Shown here piece after piece: positions 107 to 9,427 of a DNA stretch of 18,499 nt. The DNA comes from Gammaproteobacteria bacterium (GTDB lineage: Bacteria > Pseudomonadota > Gammaproteobacteria > HK1): contig JAGRHX010000140.1 of assembly GCA_020444775.1 (NCBI GenBank), forward strand, positions 1 to 18,499, in the 5' to 3' direction. Below the pieces are notes generated by a model, which saw only the letters and a program-made list of their open reading frames with translations, did no database searches and was not told the DNA's origin. The number at the start of each line of letters is the position of its first letter. The first letter of the stretch is position 1. The position numbers were made by a program, and so were the translations under genes.

Positions 107-131
107 AACGTTGTTCTTGGTAATGGGTTCC
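107..131 (-). promoter_or_regulatory. EcfG-like promoter, leftward
   Basis: Read on the minus strand this is GGAAC, 16 nt, CGTT: the -35 is at 131-127 and the -10 at 110-107. This matches the published EcfG (ECF15) general-stress consensus exactly in both boxes and in spacing. It points out of the window to the left, away from the GH15 gene. Only the core boxes match; the flanks differ from the two sites at 5033 and 6349, which resemble each other more. Confidence 0.45.
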
Positions 132-235
132 CGCTCGACCATCCATGGCGGCCCGCGCGCGTGCAGCAATTCGCATCCATGCTGACAAGTGCATGGAACC
201 GGTGACGGGTTGCGCGATCGCCATGCATGAACGTT

Positions 236-266
236 TTGACACGACCCGACATCGTCCGCGTAACGT
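236..266 (+). promoter_or_regulatory. Weak sigma-70-like promoter candidate for the GH15 gene
   Basis: A perfect TTGACA lies at 236-241, about 90 nt before the GH15 start at 329. The best -10 partner is poor: TAACGT at 261-266 with a long 19-nt spacer. A second possible -10 (TAGTAT, 286-291) has no good -35. The site is listed only because the -35 box is exact and the location is right. Confidence 0.2.
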
Positions 267-328
267 CACGAGGTGACAGCAACGGTAGTATTGGAAGGGT
301 TCTTCAAGCAGCACGAAGTGAGGCGACC

Positions 329-2218
329 ATGAGCGCGCGAATCGAGGACTATGGATTCATCGGCAACATGGTCACCGGAGCCCTGGTCGGTCGGGACGGC
401 TCCATAGACTGGCTGTGCCTGCCCGATTTCGACTCGGATGCCTGCTTCGCGGCGCTGATCGGCAACCAGCACAACGGCCGCTGGCGAATCGCGCCGGCAG
501 ACACGTCGTCGGCTTCGCAGAACCATGTCTCCCGTCGCTACGTGCCGGGCACGCCGGTGCTCGAGACCACGTTCTCGACCGCGCAGGGCACGGTGACCGT
601 CACCGATTTCCTGCCGTTGAGCGACGATCCCGAGATTGTCGAATTGGTCCGTATCGTCCGTGGTCTGGAGGGACGGGTCGAGATGGATCTGGACGGAGTG
701 ATGCGCTTCGACTTCGGTAAGACCGTACCCTGGGTACGCAAGCGCGACTACGGCATCCACGCGGTTGCAGGCCCCCATGCGATAGAGTTCGTGACACCAG
801 TGGCCTTGCATGGCGAGGACCACCGTACGGTCGCGCGATTCACGGTAGAGCAAGGCGACTCACTACCGTTCACCCTCGCCTATCACCCTCACACCCGCAG
901 GCCTCACTTCATTGGCGACCGCGCGGTCCAGCTTGCCGATACCATTGCCTGGTGGCAGCGCTGGTCCGGTGTATGTCGGCTCGATTCCATCGCCGACAAA
1001 CGCTTGCGTGATGCGGTGACCCGCTCGGTGATAACCCTGAAGACGCTCACCTACCATCCCAGCGGCGCAATCGTCGCGGCACCTACCACCTCATTGCCAG
1101 AGGAACCGGGCGCGGACCGAAACTGGGATTACCGGTACTGCTGGCTCCGGGATGCCACCTTTGCTCTTTACGCGCTGGCCAACACCGGCTACTTCGGCGA
1201 GGCTCAGGCCTTCAGGGAGTGGCTGCTGCGAGCCGCGGCGGGTGAGCCGAGTCAGACCCAGATCATGTACGGGCTACGTGGTGAGAAGCGTCTGACCGAA
1301 CAAACCCTGGACTGGCTGGAAGGCTACGCGGGCAGCCGGCCGGTGCGCGTCGGCAACGCAGCCTTTGATCAGCGTCAGCTGGATGTCTACGGTGAGTTGA
1401 TGGACGCACTACACATGGCGCGCAAGTCTCGCCTCGGACCGGAGCACGACGCCTGGCATTTTCAGAAGGTGCTGATAACCAGATTGGAACGCTTGTGGCG
1501 CGAGCCAGACAAGGGGATCTGGGAGATCCGCGGCCCGGCGCAGAATTTCGTCTATTCGAAAGCCATGGCCTGGGTGGCGTTCGACCGTGCCGCGCAGGCG
1601 GTCGAGCGCTGGGGTCTGGACGGACCGGCAGACCGCTGGCGCCAGATCTGCGACGAGATACGCGAGCAGATCCTGACCCGGGGCTTCAACCCTGCGCGCA
1701 ATACCTTCAAGCAGAGCTTCGAATCGGACCAGACGGATGCATCGCTTCTGCTACTAGCACCTGTCGGCTTCATCGCCGCGGACGATCCACGCTATCGGGG
1801 CACGGTCGAAGCCGTCGAGCATGACCTGATGCGTGATGGTCTGTTGCTGCGCTACAGCTCAAAGACCACCGACGACGGGCTCAGCGACCAGGAGGGCACG
1901 TTCTTGATCTGCAGTTTCTGGCTGGTCGACGCCTATGCGCTGATCGGGCGGCGCGAAGATGCGCGGGCGTTGCTCGATCGACTGCTGTCGCTGCGCAACG
2001 ACCTGGGTCTGTTATCGGAGGAATATGACCCGACGAGGAAACGCCTGCTGGGCAATTTCCCGCAGGCATTCTCACACATCGGGTTGGTGAACTCGGTGTT
2101 CAACCTCCTCGAGACATCCGGCCCATCCGCGCAGCGCTCGGACCTGGACACCACGCCCGTGCCCGGGTCTGGCGGACATGCGTCGGAACGAGTGAAGCAC
2201 ACGCCGACGCTAGTCTAG
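329..2218 (+). CDS. Glycoside hydrolase family 15 protein (glucoamylase/trehalase-like)
   Basis: A 629-aa cytoplasmic enzyme predicted to release glucose from alpha-glucosides; relatives include actinobacterial GH15 trehalases and glucoamylase-like enzymes. The N-terminal trehalase-like domain shows IEDYGFIGNMVTGALVGRDG (5-24), followed by IDWLCLPDFDS. The (alpha/alpha)6 barrel has NWDYRYCWLRDATFALYAL (from about 265), DVYGEL near 350, DQEGTFLICSFWLVDAYAL (about 520) and the C-terminal signature EEYDP then GNFPQAFSHIGL (564 onward), where the family's acidic catalytic residues lie. I chose ATG 329 because GTGAGG sits 5 nt upstream and the family homology begins right there; the frame stays open upstream to 227, but that stretch looks non-coding. 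There is no signal peptide. The stop overlaps the convergent fused-enzyme gene by 9 bp. The true substrate (trehalose, isomaltose or other) cannot be read from the sequence. Confidence 0.92.
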   Translation: MSARIEDYGFIGNMVTGALVGRDGSIDWLCLPDFDSDACFAALIGNQHNGRWRIAPADTSSASQNHVSRRYVPGTPVLETTFSTAQGTVTVTDFLPLSDDPEIVELVRIVRGLEGRVEMDLDGVMRFDFGKTVPWVRKRDYGIHAVAGPHAIEFVTPVALHGEDHRTVARFTVEQGDSLPFTLAYHPHTRRPHFIGDRAVQLADTIAWWQRWSGVCRLDSIADKRLRDAVTRSVITLKTLTYHPSGAIVAAPTTSLPEEPGADRNWDYRYCWLRDATFALYALANTGYFGEAQAFREWLLRAAAGEPSQTQIMYGLRGEKRLTEQTLDWLEGYAGSRPVRVGNAAFDQRQLDVYGELMDALHMARKSRLGPEHDAWHFQKVLITRLERLWREPDKGIWEIRGPAQNFVYSKAMAWVAFDRAAQAVERWGLDGPADRWRQICDEIREQILTRGFNPARNTFKQSFESDQTDASLLLLAPVGFIAADDPRYRGTVEAVEHDLMRDGLLLRYSSKTTDDGLSDQEGTFLICSFWLVDAYALIGRREDARALLDRLLSLRNDLGLLSEEYDPTRKRLLGNFPQAFSHIGLVNSVFNLLETSGPSAQRSDLDTTPVPGSGGHASERVKHTPTLV

Positions 2219-4324
2219 AGTCTCCGGGCAAAGCGAGCGCGCGAGCAGGTCGAGGAACAGACCGACATCGGTGACGATTCCGGTGGACTCCACGCTGCCG
2301 CGGTCGGCGAGCTTGGTCACGACCGACGGATTGATATCCACACACACCAGATGCACACCGGCCGGAGTCATGTTGCCTGTGGCAATCGCATGTAGCATCG
2401 AAGACAACATCAGGACCAGATCGGCGCCACGAATGGCTCGCGCATATTCTCTTTGTGCCTCGATCAAATCCATCACCGTCTCGGGCAGTGGACCATCGTC
2501 GCGGATTGAGCCCGCGAGCACATAGGGTATCTGCTGGCGCACGCACTCGAACATCACGCCGCCGCTTAGAATGCCCTGCTCGACCGCGGCGCGGATCGAG
2601 CCTGCTTCTCGAATCGTGTTGATCGCGCGCAGGTGATGCTGGTGTCCCCCCTCGACACCGACCCCGTGGCGCAGGTTCACACCCAGCGAGGTGCCATAGA
2701 GATTTGACTCGATGTCGTGAACCGGCAGGGCATTGCCGGTGAGCAGCGCCTGAACATAGCCGGCGCGGATCAGCCGAGCAAGGGACGGACCAGCACCGGT
2801 ATGCACCACTACCGGGCCGGCCACGACCACGGTCCTGCCGCCACGCGCACGTAGTCTGCGCATCTCCAAGGCCAGCTCTTCGATGGCCCCGGCCACGCGG
2901 CGCTCGCTCGAGGCCGCCGCGGTCATGAAGCCGAATTCCGCCTCGGCGCGCCGCATATCCGGCGTGCGAACCCTCACACCTTCGACACCGCAGACCACCC
3001 GGTCGGCGACCTGCAGGTCACGCATCAGCACGCAACGGGCCTGGTGCCGCGCGGCTTCTTCCGAAACCACGATCACCCCGTCCATCCGCTCGTTCTGCAC
3101 ACGCAGCCATTGCCCCTGCACCCGCACCGAGGTGGGATAGATGGTCGTGCTGTAGAAATCCCTCGGCGCCACCCCCGGCGCACGAACCTCCACCAGCCGC
3201 GCATCAGCGACTTCGTGGGCAACGTTGGCGCCATGCCCGCGCAGGCGCTCCAGAATCGATTCCAGACACTGCTCGTCCGGGGCACTGACACTCAGGCGCA
3301 CATAGGATGGCTGGTCACGACGGCCGCCGGCCCGCAGCTGGTCGATGGTGAAGCTGCCCCCGGCGACCGATATGACGTCGAGCATGCTGTTCAACTTGCC
3401 GGTGTCGAGCAGATGTCCCTGCATCTCCAGCGCGGCGTTGCGGATCGGCGAGACCAGGGGCGGGCGTGACGACGGTTGTGCTGCACTCTCCTGGGCCAGC
3501 AACAGCGCCAGGCACTTTGCCGCGCCACCCGCCTTGAGGAACTCGCTCAAGGCAACGACGATGGGCTCGTAGCCCCATGCACGAAGACGTCGTGCCAGCG
3601 CTTCGGAGACCTGATTGAGGACCAGCGTCGAGCCCAGCCGGATTGCATTGCATGCAAATCCGGCGGCATCCTCATGACCGATCTCCAACCGTCTTTCGGC
3701 CGGCACCCGGCTCCGGATACGCTGCAAGGATGCCTCGTCGAAGGCCGCCGGGTAGTACATGACGCGAGCGTCGGGCAGGGGTAGGAAGCAGGTGTCCAGA
3801 TGGTAGAAACGCTCGTCCACCAGACGTAGCGAGATCACCTCCAGATTGAGCAGCTCGCACAGCTCGCGGTGGGCTTGGAGTCCGGTTCGAACGCCATATC
3901 CGGCCCACAACAAGCCGCTGCCTTCGTCTGAAGGCCAGAGCAGGGCGTCACCCTCACCCTCGAACGGATGGTCCTGTGACAACTGCAGGACCTGAAAGCC
4001 CTGCGCCTCGAACCAGGCCTGCACATGCGCCACCTCCGGTGCTCGTTGCACCACGCTGAACACCGACGGGACGAAGCGTGTGTCGATGACAAAGCCACCG
4101 TTCGCGGTGAAGCACATATCCGGCAGCCCGGCGACGGGTTGCAACAGCGCCACGTCGGCTTGTCTGGCCAGCGTGTCGTGCAGTATCCGCCATTGGCGAC
4201 ATGCGACCGATGACGAGGCCTGACCGACGTTGCCCTCCATCCAGGGGTTGATCACGTACTCGACACCGAAATGCTCCGGTGCGCACATCAGCAATCGTGC
4301 TCTGGACGCTCCCCGGCTGTTCAT
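2210..4324 (-). CDS. argZ: Bifunctional arginine dihydrolase / ornithine cyclodeaminase-type protein (ArgZ/AgrE-like)
   Basis: A 704-aa fusion. Residues 10-285 form a guanidine-modifying (amidinotransferase-fold) domain: MCAPEHFGVEYVINPWMEGN near the start, FTANGG (72-77), FYHLDTCF with His175, and GGAAKC with Cys271 as the likely nucleophile. Residues about 295-410 resemble the TIGR00300 LOR/SDH domain. Residues about 440-700 form a nucleotide-binding domain with NLYGTSLGVNL, GGHQHHLRAINTIREAG and a terminal Rossmann-like segment (VHLVCVDINP). In cyanobacteria, proteins of this architecture and length turn arginine into ornithine with release of two NH3 and CO2 (ArgZ), and the C-terminal part can form proline from ornithine (AgrE). 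The order of domains, the length and the active-site motifs agree; activity on arginine is inferred. The ATG at 4324 has GAGGG 6 nt upstream. The gene follows the DUF2934 gene on the same strand after 125 bp and could share its transcript. Confidence 0.88.
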   Translation of the reverse strand: MNSRGASRARLLMCAPEHFGVEYVINPWMEGNVGQASSSVACRQWRILHDTLARQADVALLQPVAGLPDMCFTANGGFVIDTRFVPSVFSVVQRAPEVAHVQAWFEAQGFQVLQLSQDHPFEGEGDALLWPSDEGSGLLWAGYGVRTGLQAHRELCELLNLEVISLRLVDERFYHLDTCFLPLPDARVMYYPAAFDEASLQRIRSRVPAERRLEIGHEDAAGFACNAIRLGSTLVLNQVSEALARRLRAWGYEPIVVALSEFLKAGGAAKCLALLLAQESAAQPSSRPPLVSPIRNAALEMQGHLLDTGKLNSMLDVISVAGGSFTIDQLRAGGRRDQPSYVRLSVSAPDEQCLESILERLRGHGANVAHEVADARLVEVRAPGVAPRDFYSTTIYPTSVRVQGQWLRVQNERMDGVIVVSEEAARHQARCVLMRDLQVADRVVCGVEGVRVRTPDMRRAEAEFGFMTAAASSERRVAGAIEELALEMRRLRARGGRTVVVAGPVVVHTGAGPSLARLIRAGYVQALLTGNALPVHDIESNLYGTSLGVNLRHGVGVEGGHQHHLRAINTIREAGSIRAAVEQGILSGGVMFECVRQQIPYVLAGSIRDDGPLPETVMDLIEAQREYARAIRGADLVLMLSSMLHAIATGNMTPAGVHLVCVDINPSVVTKLADRGSVESTGIVTDVGLFLDLLARSLCPETLD

Positions 4325-4449: not shown

Positions 4450-4713
4450 TCAGTAGCCGGGCGGATCGCTGGCCGGAAAGGACTCGTCCGCGGCCTCGTC
4501 GACCTGGTCCCAGCTCGGCGGTCTCGAGCGCATCGCCGACGTCCCGGCTGGACGGATCACCGATTCGCCCGCAACAGTGTCGTCCCCGCCGTTCAGCACC
4601 CGCTGCTCGGCCTCGAACCAGATCTCCTCGGCGCGTCCCTCGGGCATGCCCCGGCCCTGCCAGATCCTATAGGCAAGCTCACGGACACGCTGCTCATGGT
4701 GGGTTTCGTTCAT
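4450..4713 (-). CDS. Small DUF2934-family protein
   Basis: An 87-aa soluble, charged protein. Residues 9-40 carry the DUF2934 pattern: an RELAYRIWQ helix, a GMPEGRAEE turn, then IWFEAEQRVL. The C-terminus (DEAADESFPASDPPGY, 72-87) is a short motif common at the ends of small proteobacterial stress-type proteins. DUF2934 has no known biochemical function. The ATG at 4713 is chosen because GGAGGG lies 4 nt upstream; the longer frame back to 4833 would read through a GC-rich tandem repeat and is unlikely to be translated. It is divergent from the universal stress protein gene, with a 455-bp gap, and 125 bp upstream of the ArgZ-like gene. A role in stress response is only a contextual guess. Confidence 0.8.
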   Translation of the reverse strand: MNETHHEQRVRELAYRIWQGRGMPEGRAEEIWFEAEQRVLNGGDDTVAGESVIRPAGTSAMRSRPPSWDQVDEAADESFPASDPPGY

Positions 4714-5032
4714 CACACCCTCCGCGTCTGACTGCATCATCTGACCACATTGCCTGACCGGGCTCGGCACCGGTTTGGCCGGTCCCCCCGGGTTTGGCCG
4801 GTCCCCCATGCATCGGCCAGGGTTCGGCTGCACCTTTGGTCGTGCATTGCGTGAGTTCCGCAGTCACCTTATCTGCAAGTCGCATGCCGCGCGCTGATTG
4901 GCCGAGCACACCGGGTTGGAGCGCCCCCATCTCGTCGCGATTCGCTGTCTTGTGTATCGATGCATCTGGCATCGCTCCCGAGCACTACGGTGATGCCCCG
5001 CATGTCATCGGCAGGGCCCGAAGGGTCGCAAT
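4714..5032. other. Divergent intergenic region, DUF2934 / universal stress protein
   Basis: This stretch holds a 17-bp tandem repeat and, at its right end, the EcfG-like promoter of the stress protein gene. Open frames exist on both strands but none has a ribosome site plus recognisable protein content. A promoter for the leftward DUF2934 gene must lie here, but I see no clear match. Confidence 0.5.
4772..4807. repeat. Two-copy 17-bp direct repeat
   Basis: GGTTTGGCCGGTCCCCC occurs at 4772-4788 and again at 4791-4807, a period of 19 bp. It lies 59 bp upstream of the DUF2934 start. It may be simple slippage or a pair of binding sites. Confidence 0.8.
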
Positions 5033-5057
5033 GGAACCGGGACCCGTCACGTGCGTT
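5033..5057 (+). promoter_or_regulatory. EcfG-like promoter of the universal stress protein gene
   Basis: GGAAC at 5033-5037, 16 nt, CGTT at 5054-5057. The site shares the 10-mer GTGCGTTGGT (5051-5060) with a second site at 6367-6376, and both read GGAACCG at the -35. It lies about 110 nt before the stress protein start and points toward it. The match to the EcfG general-stress consensus is exact. That the local sigma factor (6592-7089) reads it is an inference. Confidence 0.6.
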
Positions 5058-5108
5058 GGTGCTGATGAATGCGCGTGGACCGTCAAGGACGGCACCAGGC
5101 ACTGACGA

Positions 5109-5140
5109 TTGGGGCGACTGTCGGTTGGGGCGACGGTCGA
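5109..5140 (+). repeat. 16-bp tandem duplication in the stress-protein leader
   Basis: TTGGGGCGACTGTCGG (5109-5124) is followed at once by TTGGGGCGACGGTCGA (5125-5140), 14 of 16 positions identical. It sits between the EcfG-like promoter and the start codon, so it would be in the 5' leader of the mRNA. Confidence 0.7.
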
Positions 5141-5168
5141 TCGGGCCATGATCCATCTGGAAAGCCTC

Positions 5169-6059
5169 ATGTACAAAGACATTCTGGTCAATCTCAGCGG
5201 GCGTGCCGAACGGGACGAGTCGTTGCTGACGACAACCTGCAAGCTGGCCGCGGCGCACGGCGGACGCGTGTACGCGATGAAAGACGACGTCTCGGTATCC
5301 ATCGCGGCACTACCGTATGGACACCCGGTAGGCGCCGGCGTAGGCACTGCATATCTTGCCAGCGAGCTCAATCGTCGCCGGGTCGAATCACAGGAACGGG
5401 TACGGGCCTGGTTCTCGGACTTCGTCGACAGGGGCAGACGCGATGGCACCGCGTCGATGCCCAACACCGTTGCCTGGCTGTCGGCCGACGGCCTGCCCCA
5501 CTCGGCGCTCGACGAAATCTGGCGTCGCATGGACCTCATGGCCTTCTCACAGCCCGAGGACGGCGGAACCGGCACCTACACCTTCGAAAGAGCGCCCGAA
5601 GTCGCCATCCGATCCGGACGCCCGGTGCTGCTCTGTCCTGCCGAGGCTCCGCCGACGCTGGGCAAACGGGTGCTCGTCGCCTGGAACGGCTCGCGCCAGG
5701 CCGCCCGCGCCACGCACGATGCGCTGCCGTTGCTGACCCGAGCCGACGAGGTCATCGTCGCGACCATCGACGCGAGTGCCACCGAGGCGGCTGCCGAGAC
5801 CGTCGCCGCGGACAGCCCGGACGTGCTGCCGGACATGGCGGCGCACCTCGAGGCCCACGGGGTACCGGCCAGGGCACTGCATGTCCCCAGGAACGGACAA
5901 TCCGCGGCCGAGCAGCTCTGCAGCGTGGCCCGAGAGGAGGATGTGGATCTGCTGGTGATGGGCGTGTACGGCCATTCGAGACTACGCGAGCTCGTGTTTG
6001 GCGGCACCACCCGCGAGATCCTCGCGCATCCGGTCGTGACGACCTTGTTGTCGCATTGA
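5169..6059 (+). CDS. Tandem-domain universal stress protein (UspA family)
   Basis: A 296-aa soluble protein with two Usp folds. The first (1-158) begins MYKDILVNLSG and has lost the nucleotide-binding glycines at its C-terminal end. The second (165-296) begins KRVLVAWNGSRQAARA and keeps the ATP-binding loop GVYGHSRLRELVFGGT (265-280), which fits G-2X-G-9X-G with the following small residues. Proteins of this architecture act in survival of stasis, oxidative or envelope stress; exact partners are unknown. ATG 5169 is preferred, with a weak GGAAAG 4 nt upstream and family homology starting at this Met; an in-frame ATG at 5148 is possible but has no ribosome site. An EcfG-like promoter stands about 110 nt upstream. 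The gene converges with the sigma factor gene across a 530-bp gap. Confidence 0.9.
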   Translation: MYKDILVNLSGRAERDESLLTTTCKLAAAHGGRVYAMKDDVSVSIAALPYGHPVGAGVGTAYLASELNRRRVESQERVRAWFSDFVDRGRRDGTASMPNTVAWLSADGLPHSALDEIWRRMDLMAFSQPEDGGTGTYTFERAPEVAIRSGRPVLLCPAEAPPTLGKRVLVAWNGSRQAARATHDALPLLTRADEVIVATIDASATEAAAETVAADSPDVLPDMAAHLEAHGVPARALHVPRNGQSAAEQLCSVAREEDVDLLVMGVYGHSRLRELVFGGTTREILAHPVVTTLLSH

Positions 6060-6153
6060 TACGACCGTGTGACAACGAGCCACGCCGCGGACCGGCCACA
6101 CGCAAGACCAGTCGGGTCGGTACACGTACATCCGGACATCGCGCGGATCATTT

Positions 6154-6189
6154 GAACCGCCATTGGTTGCTGACAACCAATGGCGGTTC
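6154..6189. terminator. Perfect 16-bp inverted repeat, possible bidirectional terminator
   Basis: GAACCGCCATTGGTTG (6154-6169), loop CTGA, CAACCAATGGCGGTTC (6174-6189), with no mismatch. It stands 95 bp after the stress-protein stop, between two convergent genes, so termination for both is a natural reading. No T-run follows on either strand, so it is not a classic intrinsic terminator. A protein-binding palindrome or RNA-stabilising hairpin is also possible. Confidence 0.55.
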
Positions 6190-6348
6190 GAGATTCCGGT
6201 TTACCGCGGGCGTGTTCGGGTTCGGGAAGTCGAAGGCCGGGCATTTCAGCAAGACACAGAGCACCACGCACGCCGACGACATCACGGTCCACGAGGTCAA
6301 TGTGCGCGGCGCACCCGCGCATACCGGTCGGAGCAGAAGCCACACTTG

Positions 6349-6373
6349 GGAACCGAGCGTCGGCATGTGCGTT
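6349..6373 (+). promoter_or_regulatory. EcfG-like promoter with no clear gene downstream
   Basis: GGAAC at 6349-6353, 16 nt, CGTT at 6370-6373, followed by GGT as in the 5033 site. The two sites share GTGCGTTGGT exactly. It points right, toward the 3' end of the leftward sigma gene whose stop is at 6592. A transcript from about 6380 would be non-coding or encode only a short peptide, and beyond about 210 nt it would be antisense to the sigma mRNA. Confidence 0.5.
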
Positions 6374-6591
6374 GGTCTCGCATGAATGCCTCCGGGATTT
6401 CATCGACACGAGATACACACAAAGGCTGCGACCGGCGGTGGGCTCGCCCGACTGGCCCGATGCTGCCAGCAGTAGACGAACATGCGGGTCTTGCATGTGA
6501 TGACCAGGGAGCTGGGTATGGTGTCCTACCGATACCACCGTGGTCTACGGCGCTCACTCTGAGCCTTCCAATGGCGACATCTCGCCAACGA

Positions 6592-7089
6592 CTACGCAAG
6601 CGGGTCGACACCATCCAGCGCTCGACGCAGCGCTCGCCGACCACGTGATACCCGCGACTTGACGGTACCGACCGCGATACCCTCCGAATCGGCAATCTCC
6701 TCGTAGGACTCGCCGCCCAGCGCGACGCGCTCGATCAAGGCAACCTGATGACCGGGCAGCTGGCGGAGCGCGTTGGACAGCACTTGCAGATGCACCTCCT
6801 GCTCCTGGTCAGGCTGTCTGCTCGGCAAGGATCGGGACGCGATGTCGATGTCGATGTGCACCGCGTTGTGACTGGGACGTCTGAGATTCGAGACATGCAG
6901 GTTGTGCAGTATCGCGAACAGCCACGCGCGCAGATTGGTTCCAGATCGATACTGACAAGATCGAGACAGCGCCCGCTCGATGCTGTCCTGCACGAGGTCG
7001 TCAGCCTCGGTGGAATCCCGGGTGATGCTCAGTGCGTAGCGCTTGAGGTGCGGGATCCAGGCCTCTATGTTCTGGTAGACGTCATTCAT
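6592..7089 (-). CDS. ECF-type RNA polymerase sigma factor, EcfG-like
   Basis: A 165-aa sigma-70 family protein with only regions 2 and 4. Region 2 (about 10-75) includes LKRYALSITRDSTEADDLVQ then TNLRAWLFAILHNLHVSNLR. Region 4 (about 100-155) includes LPGHQVALIERVALGGESYE, EEIADSEGIAVGTVKSRVSR and a basic end, the helix-turn-helix that reads the -35 element. The ADDLVQDS...NLRAWLF pattern is like the EcfG/RpoE-type general-stress sigma factors. ATG 7089 is chosen because GGAG lies 5 nt upstream and homology starts there; the frame open to 7203 carries no family sequence. No anti-sigma factor gene (NepR-type or zinc-binding) lies beside it, which is unusual for ECF factors. The matching GGAAC...CGTT sites nearby suggest it controls the stress protein gene. 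Which ECF group it belongs to needs a profile search. Confidence 0.9.
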   Translation of the reverse strand: MNDVYQNIEAWIPHLKRYALSITRDSTEADDLVQDSIERALSRSCQYRSGTNLRAWLFAILHNLHVSNLRRPSHNAVHIDIDIASRSLPSRQPDQEQEVHLQVLSNALRQLPGHQVALIERVALGGESYEEIADSEGIAVGTVKSRVSRGRRALRRALDGVDPLA

Positions 7090-7555
7090 GGCGAGCTCCG
7101 CTTGGATGCCTTCGCTGCACACATCGTGAACGGCACACCACGCCTCGAGACCGACTGACGGTCGGCACGCCCGAGCGGCGCACGGCGATGGGATTGACGG
7201 CATGCGCGTTCCGGGATCATCGATGCGAGCACCATGCCAGGTGCAAGGCAGTACCCCGGACGCTGCGCCTGAGCGACGCCGTCAGGCATGGCATTCGGGG
7301 CTGGCGCCCCGCCATCGGCGACGCTCAGCACCTACAGGGTGACCCGGCGTGACAGAACCCCGGCTGCCATTCCAAGAACCAGATGCCCGCAACGAGGCAG
7401 AACGTGCGCAGCTGGGGGACCAGGCTGGGAGCGATGCACGGCGGCCTCCGTGCACTGACGTCAGCCGCGCTACAATGCCCGGTCAACCGTCGTCTGGCTT
7501 CGCGGGGGTCCCTCGTGGCCATGCCGGCGAAGCCCTTCATGTCGAGGATCCGTTC
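7090..7555. other. Divergent intergenic region, sigma factor / dehydratase
   Basis: About 470 bp between the divergently read sigma gene and dehydratase gene. The dehydratase frame is open back to 7349, but that part is low-complexity and precedes the ribosome site. A TACAAT hexamer at 7471-7476, 80 nt before the dehydratase start, resembles a -10 box but has no matching -35. No GGAAC...CGTT site was found here, so autoregulation of the sigma gene through that motif is not supported. Confidence 0.4.
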
Positions 7556-9427
7556 ATGCCGAGCCAGTCACCCCCTGTACTCATCGACACCAACCCCGGC
7601 CGTAGCGCCCAGACCTACGGCATCGCCCGCGAGATCGGTACCGATATCGAGCTCGCGCATGCGCCCTCGGTGGGCGTCATCGGTAACAAAGGCGACAGCC
7701 AGTGTTATCTGGGCGTGCAGCACAAGGTCGAGGTCATCCAGGCCTGTCTGCGTCGCCGCATCGGCCGGGAGAGCGGCCAGCTCGCCATGCGGCTGGTGCA
7801 GCCGGAGTACACGGTGGCCACCTCCGATGGCATGCGCAATGGCACCCGCGAGATGCGTTACTCGCTGATCGGGCGCGAGGTCACCCACGACGGCGTCTGC
7901 GAGCACCTCAGCGCGAGCGGGCTCGAGGGCACCATCGCCGTGGTTGCCTGCGACAAGCCGCCGGTCGGCACGCTGGCCGCGATCCTCGAGCACAACCGAC
8001 CGGCCATCATCATGTCCGATGGTCCGATCCACCCGGGCCGGGACTCGGTGACCGGCGAGTTGCTGGATATCGTCAGCGGTTTCCAGGCAGCGGGCAATCC
8101 GGACGAGGCGCTGAAGAAGCGCATCGCCTGCGAAGCCTGCCCCGGCTACGGAAGCTGTGGCGGCATGTTCACCTACAACACCATGCAGACCTTCATCGGC
8201 GTGGTCGGCATGCAACCACTGCACATGGTGGCCGCCCCGTCGGACGACCCGCGTCGGGTCGAGTCCTTCCCGGACGAGCTGGTCGATCACCTGAGCATGA
8301 TGATCGACAAGGGCATCACGCCGCGTGACATCGTCACCCGTGATGAGCTGCGCAACGCCGTGATCGTCGCGATGGCTATCGGCGGATCGACCAACGTGGT
8401 GCTACACGCGCCGGAGCTGGCGCGCGCCGCGGGCTTCGCGGACTTCTGGCGGGAAATCATGACACCGCAGGAATTCAACCATCTGTCCCAGCACATGGTG
8501 CCGGTGCTGGTCGATGCCCGTCCCTTCGGCCGCTACTCGATGGTCGACATCGATGAGAAAGGCGGCGTCCAGGTGATCGTCAAGGAGCTGCTGGCGGCCG
8601 GTCTGCTGAACGGCGAGACCCTGACCTGCACCGGCGAGACGCTGGCCGAGCAGGTGGCCCGGCTGAACCCGCCGGCACCGGACGGCGATGTCGTGCATAC
8701 CGTGCAGAACCCTTACAAACCAACCGGCGGGCTGCGCGTGCTGGGCGGCAATCTGTCACCGGCGTTCAGCGCCGTGCTCAAGCTCGCCGGTGTCGAGGGT
8801 GGGTTGGAAGACAATGTCTTCCGTGGCCGCGCACGGGTATTCGACGGCGAGCGTGGACTGCTCGACGCCCTGGCCGAGCATCCCGAGCGCTTTGCCAATC
8901 ACGACATGGTGATCGTCCGCTACGAGGGCCCGAGCGGTGCGCCGGGCATGCCGGAGATGCTCGATTCGACCTCGCGTATCACCACCTTGTGCCGGGAGCG
9001 TGGCATCGTCGTCGGGCTGATGACCGATGCGCGCTTCTCAGGCGGCTCGGTCGGGCTGGTGATCGGGCATGTCGGTCCAGAGGCGGCGCTGGGGGGGCCA
9101 ATTGCGTTCATCGAGGATGGCGATGAGATCGTCGTCGATCTGAACAGCAACGAGCTCAATTGTCCGGCGCTCGAGGACGCCGGATTGTTGCAGGCGCGCA
9201 AAGCCGCATGGCAGAAGACGGTGGATGCAAATGATGGCATGCATCCGTCCTGCGGCATGGCCGACACCCGTTTGTTGAATCGGATGCGGCGCTCGGCAGT
9301 GTCGGCCATTCATGGCGCCGGCATGCACCCGGACCGACAGCTCTGGGTCAAGGCGCCTCGCGCGGCCGAGCGTTCCGGCTTCGTGCCCAAGAACAAGTGG
9401 CGTCCGGGTCTGGAAAAGGCATTCTGA
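7556..9427 (+). CDS. IlvD/Edd-family Fe-S dehydratase
   Basis: A 623-aa cytoplasmic enzyme of the dihydroxyacid/6-phosphogluconate dehydratase family, which removes water from a sugar acid or 2,3-dihydroxy acid to give a 2-keto acid, using an Fe-S cluster. Three cysteines stand where the family holds its cluster: Cys50 (GDSQC), Cys132 (ACDK) and Cys201 (GYGSCGGMF). Other family marks are SDGM then RYSLIGRE (90-108), DGPIHPG (155-161), DIDEKGGVQVIVKELL, YEGPSGAPGMPEML and DARFSGGSVGLVIGHVGPEA, the last with the active-site serine. The sequence departs from standard IlvD (GNKGDSQC instead of the TPCN-type segment; CDKPPVG instead of CDKTxPG), so it is probably a paralogue with another substrate, perhaps a sugar acid. 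ATG 7556 is favoured by GAGGA 7 nt upstream. A hairpin follows the stop by about 20 bp. Confidence 0.85.
   Translation: MPSQSPPVLIDTNPGRSAQTYGIAREIGTDIELAHAPSVGVIGNKGDSQCYLGVQHKVEVIQACLRRRIGRESGQLAMRLVQPEYTVATSDGMRNGTREMRYSLIGREVTHDGVCEHLSASGLEGTIAVVACDKPPVGTLAAILEHNRPAIIMSDGPIHPGRDSVTGELLDIVSGFQAAGNPDEALKKRIACEACPGYGSCGGMFTYNTMQTFIGVVGMQPLHMVAAPSDDPRRVESFPDELVDHLSMMIDKGITPRDIVTRDELRNAVIVAMAIGGSTNVVLHAPELARAAGFADFWREIMTPQEFNHLSQHMVPVLVDARPFGRYSMVDIDEKGGVQVIVKELLAAGLLNGETLTCTGETLAEQVARLNPPAPDGDVVHTVQNPYKPTGGLRVLGGNLSPAFSAVLKLAGVEGGLEDNVFRGRARVFDGERGLLDALAEHPERFANHDMVIVRYEGPSGAPGMPEMLDSTSRITTLCRERGIVVGLMTDARFSGGSVGLVIGHVGPEAALGGPIAFIEDGDEIVVDLNSNELNCPALEDAGLLQARKAAWQKTVDANDGMHPSCGMADTRLLNRMRRSAVSAIHGAGMHPDRQLWVKAPRAAERSGFVPKNKWRPGLEKAF

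Follow-up and report, generated by a model that had tools for sequence, protein, structure and literature searches.

Three GGAAC-N16-CGTT sites and a candidate EcfG-like sigma factor in a contig labelled Gammaproteobacteria

The ECF sigma factor EcfG (ECF15) and its promoter motif, GGAAC-N16-CGTT, have been described as exclusive to the Alphaproteobacteria (PMC3892343). EcfG is described as being under the control of NepR and PhyR (PMC8999054), and the canonical factor as autoregulated (PMC8103513). A table of EcfG-dependent genes of Sphingomonas, in which the promoter sequences are given, includes a trehalohydrolase and GlgX (PMC6599016). In the titles and abstract openings of the open-licence papers listed, no orphan or non-alphaproteobacterial EcfG system is described.

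The stretch of DNA analysed here, 18,499 nucleotides in all and referred to as the window, had been read from its sequence before, and that sequence-only reading proposed that a local ECF sigma factor reads three promoter sites of the EcfG type. All three sites were found where they had been placed and match GGAAC-N16-CGTT exactly, and the ECF sigma reading frame on the minus strand was likewise borne out (Table 1).

Table 1. Positions of the sites and genes of the window that bear on the analysis.
Feature	Position	Strand	Basis and remarks
Site 1, GGAAC-N16-CGTT	107..131	minus	exact, intergenic; any target would be off the left edge
GH15 / trehalase-like glycoside hydrolase	227..2218	plus	Pfam PF00723 and PF19291; start codon uncertain
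DUF2934 protein	4450..4734	minus	Pfam PF11154, matched in the longer ORF 4450-4833; start inferred
Site 2, GGAAC-N16-CGTT	5033..5057	plus	exact, intergenic; usp start about 110 nt downstream
Universal stress protein (usp)	5169..6059	plus	Pfam PF00582, 51 bits
Site 3, GGAAC-N16-CGTT	6349..6373	plus	exact, intergenic; oriented towards the sigma gene's 3' end
ECF sigma factor, 165 aa	6592..7089	minus	Pfam PF22029, PF08281, PF04542 and PF04545
Dihydroxy-acid dehydratase	7556-9427		

The three sites are real and exceed what chance would give. For this motif, which was picked post hoc after inspection of the window, shuffled versions of the window held on average 0.14 matches, the figure of about 0.14 that had been calculated before, and none of the 200 shuffles contained three. 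When the spacer was varied from N8 to N25, N16 gave three matches and every other spacing 0 or 1, and the reversed control pattern gave 0 matches in the window. The observation that no exact site lies in a coding region also stands, since all three are intergenic in a gene set that was assembled in this analysis and covers 84% of the window; by the same gene set, the one-mismatch N16 sites (5/5) fall within genes. Sites 2 and 3 are identical at 22 of 28 bases, and ATGAATGC continues both of them after a short offset; their alignment was equalled by none of 4807 other intergenic pairs.

Site 2 is the one that had been noticed ahead of the universal stress protein gene, and it does lie there. 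The GH15 / trehalase-like gene is divergent from site 1, and neither this gene nor the DUF2934 gene has a motif site of its own. Site 3 is followed by no evident gene on the same strand for 1.18 kb (before 7556). An 88-codon ORF 3' of site 3 was rejected as a gene, as its GC content by codon position does not follow that of the genes in the window, and a structured RNA at the same place was rejected on a fold z-score of 0.00; a search of the whole window against Rfam at gathering scores returned no match. A transcript from site 3 would pass through 6380-6591, where there is no coding signal and the fold is ordinary, and enter the sigma gene antisense.

Other features of the window were noted. 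Short tandem direct repeats of 19 nt (4772-4809) and 16 nt (5101-5132) precede the DUF2934 and usp genes, and about 95 nt past usp there is a perfect inverted repeat at 6153-6190 (arms 6154-6169 and 6174-6189, with a 4-nt gap) that would form a strong hairpin, z-score of -7.96, without a T run. The product of 2210-4324 resembles a bifunctional arginine dihydrolase / ornithine cyclodeaminase of the ArgZ type (932 bits vs a cut-off of 1025), and its C-terminal part scores above the TIGR00300 cut-off. The dehydratase is 84% identical to a protein labelled Gammaproteobacteria, with alpha- and betaproteobacterial labels at 78-79%, and it groups with the gammaproteobacterial row in a tree of few labels and modest support; in the class of G001, it was matched at E 1e-200 in 3/369 genomes, at 76-78% identity. 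The nearest relatives of the Usp protein are weaker and partly alphaproteobacterial; a 195-aa protein (P0121) from another public contig, of 1.2 kb, is identical to 60% of it.

We then consider the sigma factor itself. Pfam recognises sigma region 2, region 4 and the PhyR sigma2 domain, and the protein carries the loop GTNLRAWLF and the region-4 sequence GTVKSR. PRK12547 (NCBIfam, cut-off of 219 bits), which we take to be the EcfG model from the scores of three NepR-linked EcfGs that pass it at 227, 241 and 255 bits, gave the window sigma 105 bits and its relatives P0002, L003 and L052 101, 121 and 122 bits, respectively; among the best 25 of 79 NCBIfam families, the window sigma passes the general ECF superfamily model alone. 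On profiles made in-house it scored 214 bits with its own clade, 158 with the ECF26-like set, 153 with a further alphaproteobacterial set and 141 with EcfG, the label ECF26-like being provisional and derived from an upstream lipoprotein-like ORF judged by eye in L002 and L009. In a careful tree of 82 proteins the window sigma falls in a 22-member clade with support of 100/99, apart from the ECF26-like sigmas and apart from the NepR-linked EcfG clade, which has a long stem. A quick tree had made the two clades sisters; the 82-protein tree keeps them apart, a constraint joining them is not rejected (p-AU 0.185), and the sister relation to EcfG is not firm. A plain EcfG (ECF15) identity was rejected on the PRK12547 score, which is below a cut-off that the NepR-linked EcfGs pass, and on the separate clade. 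The sequence comparisons suggest instead a factor that resembles EcfG and sits in its own clade, for which membership of ECF15 is not supported.

The nearest named relative of the window sigma, P0002, is 66% identical and comes from a Gammaproteobacteria MAG. Together with the dehydratase, and with few labels to go by, this makes the host of the window probably a gammaproteobacterium. The sigmas of L003 and L052 share 44-45% identity with the window sigma among the matches listed, and nearer relatives may exist. A sigma match at E 1e-20 was obtained in 37/369 genomes of the class of G001, with a best identity of 47% among the matches listed, in 2/48 genomes of the order of G360, at 34 and 35% identity, and in 0/4 genomes of the order of G195; a search of viral contigs for relatives gave no useful lead.

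The absence of a neighbouring nepR or phyR, as claimed from the sequence, was upheld for the window. A NepR profile made here had no match in its six frames, and the alignments of a PhyR query were limited to 13 residues (E 0.78) and to part of the sigma itself at 22.6% identity (E 0.047). The minus-strand ORF at 7086-7331, overlapping the start of the sigma gene, was tried as NepR and rejected, the NepR profile being without a match. The small minus-strand frames beside the sigma gene were also unconvincing as an anti-sigma gene by codon-position GC, the profile search having covered NepR only. Upstream of the sigma gene there is no site with an N16 or N17 spacer, be it exact or with one mismatch, and thus no sign of the autoregulation that is usual for canonical EcfG.

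The same profiles were applied to genomes with relatives of the window sigma. Across 56 genomes the NepR profile was above its cut-off in 11 and absent from G375 and G397, the genomes that hold the clade sigmas L003 and L052, and PhyR was positive in 6/21 genomes, the source of the query included, all six of which also have NepR; it was found in neither G375 nor G397 among the 21, nor in G548. In G375 and G397 nothing matches the canonical EcfG profile better than the clade sigmas themselves (126-138 bits), whereas in four control genomes the NepR-linked EcfGs reach 234-328 bits. These results are suggestive of two genomes without NepR, PhyR and canonical EcfG, an absence that is weak evidence as both assemblies may be incomplete. 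In G548, a 20-kb locus (L220) has 8 motif sites and two EcfG-like sigmas (135-153 bits on the canonical EcfG profile), each then followed by a small reading frame, together with a weak NepR-profile match of 12.5 bits; attention to it arose post hoc, and its sigma lies outside the clade of the window sigma, the one of the two included in the tree being placed in another clade.

We counted exact sites around sigma genes of different types. Three clade loci had flanks of 16-20 kb, L003 and L201, both from G375, and L052, from G397, with 9 (in 20.5 kb), 0 and 2 sites, respectively, or 11 sites in 57 kb vs 2 matches of the reversed control. The NepR-linked set of 19 loci contained 49 sites in 376 kb vs 4 reversed; it consists of 18 loci of a Rhodobacterales EcfG branch and L204, and its nepR genes were identified by eye in eight loci and by Pfam for L204 and assumed from the tree for the rest. 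Six further NepR-linked loci outside the locus table (L205-L210) had 4, 0, 2, 3, 2 and 0 sites. In 70 loci with other ECF types there were 11 sites in 1202 kb vs 18 reversed, or 0.18 per 20 kb, which is background; the locus table is without L203, which is on the same contig as L004, and L220 stands outside the 70.

The loci could also be divided by two residues, an N in the region-2 loop and a K in region 4 (GTxKSR), both of which the window sigma carries. There were 68 sites in the 25 loci with this combination, a post hoc rule for which 18/25 loci are of one Rhodobacterales branch, and a site was present in 9/67 loci with other or unread combinations. With the Rhodobacterales branch excluded, 4/7 N/K loci have a site vs 9/67 (Fisher 0.016), and 5/8 when L052, which was counted apart, is added (Fisher 0.005); with both the branch and L204 excluded and L052 not added, the count is 3/6 (Fisher 0.052).

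In the whole genome of G375 the motif occurs 58 times and the reversed pattern 26 times, three overlapping opposite-strand pairs among the latter meaning that not all are independent. Nine of the 58 sites are inside the 20.5-kb locus of the sigma, L003 (binomial 6.6e-11), and a tenth is 1.2 kb beyond. By a simple gene call, 25/58 sites lie between genes vs 2/26 for the reversed control; the island accounts for 10/10 and the rest of the genome for 15/48, which is a modest excess over the reversed pattern (Fisher 0.018). Sites that are intergenic and lie at most 300 nt from the start of a gene on the same strand number 7/10 in the island, 11/48 elsewhere and 0/26 for the reversed pattern. The island sites adjoin genes for MgtC, an EncFtn-like ferritin, an encapsulin and a Usp by Pfam, the spacing of the Usp site being N17, and the other five L003 genes scanned with Pfam showed no family or one below the cut-off. 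G397 displays no overall excess across the genome, with 26 motif vs 24 reversed matches. Its L052 locus has two sites (p 0.02 against the rate of this genome), the one gene scanned there with Pfam matched no family, and nothing yet marks the neighbourhood as a stress island. Across 38 genomes the raw genome-wide counts were not discriminating, as is expected if most matches lie within genes.

Taken together, we lean slightly towards an orphan EcfG-like ECF factor that would drive nearby GGAAC-N16-CGTT promoters without the NepR/PhyR switch. The comparisons of sequence support such a reading of the promoters mainly through L003 and G375, a single independent locus and the genome that contains it. 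Weighing against it are L201 without sites, G397 without an excess, the unclear product of site 3 and the 44-45% identity between the sigmas of L003 and L052 and that of the window, and by profile score the window sigma appears no nearer to EcfG than to the two other sets. Chance matches to a nine-base pattern that was picked post hoc would be another explanation, and one could point to the small number of sites, one of which has no evident gene and another of which is at the edge of the window; we consider this improbable in view of the shuffles, the enrichment of N16 alone, the intergenic position of every site and the clustering round the sigma of a relative.

The sites could be genuine and have another reader. 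Elsewhere in the genome there might be a canonical EcfG with NepR and PhyR that uses them, the local sigma being an EcfG2-like paralogue. Half of the completed alphaproteobacterial genomes are reported to have at least two EcfG-like copies, of which the primary one is typically beside nepR (PMC3892343), and PhyR, NepR and EcfG are encoded together in a complete cluster that has motif sites (L106 905-2655; L204 9645-11395) in G281, a genome taken from the same class as an assembly with Gammaproteobacteria as its title, the class being presumed from that title. G375 and G397, however, have clade sigmas and, as far as these possibly incomplete assemblies go, no NepR, PhyR or EcfG of the NepR-linked type, and the sites in G375 cluster round the orphan clade sigma, so that we hold this explanation to be unlikely. 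It is less probable still, and about on a par with chance, that a different ECF sigma whose -35 box is of the GGAAC type, ECF26-like or RpoE-like, reads the sites while the local sigma has its targets elsewhere. The ECF26-like profile scores the window sigma slightly above the EcfG profile, and RpoE6 of S. meliloti, an ECF26 factor, is described with a motif resembling that of ECF15 (PMC6180224), but the same source reports the ECF26 consensus as GGAATA/GT, and the 70 loci with ECF26-like and other types have the motif at background.

If the local orphan factor is indeed the reader, it would guide RNA polymerase to the GGAAC-N16-CGTT promoters in the neighbourhood of its gene. The putative targets are usp from site 2, a gene left of the window edge from site 1 and, from site 3, a transcript that is short or antisense. 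The target genes would presumably be induced by stress. As no anti-sigma is seen, the simplest guess is that the sigma is controlled through expression of its own gene, although a further regulator may act on it. Of the proposal that the sigma reads these sites, we retain that it is the best candidate reader and that the sites resemble EcfG-type promoters; binding is inferred, and membership of the protein in ECF15 is unsupported. More tentatively, and with some doubt, there may be a whole clade of orphan EcfG-like sigmas, in a gammaproteobacterial lineage and some alphaproteobacteria, that use the EcfG promoter without the partner switch and drive compact stress islands next to their own genes. 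If true, a stress regulon would have kept or regained the promoter code and not the control circuit. An orphan sigma on the EcfG promoter outside the Alphaproteobacteria would separate the two, and the small locus would lend itself to asking how a sigma of this kind is held inactive and then activated.

Among the described systems, the ECF26 factors of S. meliloti (RpoE1/3/4/6, PMC6180224) and EcfG2 of R. etli (PMC3892343) were compared by description. The window sigma is like ECF26 in its similar overall score on the ECF26-like profile. It differs in that no anti-sigma partner is seen beside it, that its region 4 reads GTVKSR and not the GTxMSR of the ECF26-like loci here, and that those loci have the motif at background. 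With EcfG2 it shares the character of an EcfG-like sigma for which autoregulation is not evident, but of the 19 units with lowered expression in the ecfG2 mutant of R. etli only one is reported to match the motif, whereas the local sites of the window are exact. Unlike EcfG (ECF15), the window sigma belongs to a separate clade and scores below the PRK12547 cut-off, no nepR or phyR was found with it in the window, it has no self-promoter of the motif type, and its host is probably not an alphaproteobacterium. Like EcfG, it has GGAAC-N16-CGTT sites in its vicinity with a stress gene behind one of them, and in the alignment it carries the loop GTN and the region-4 K.
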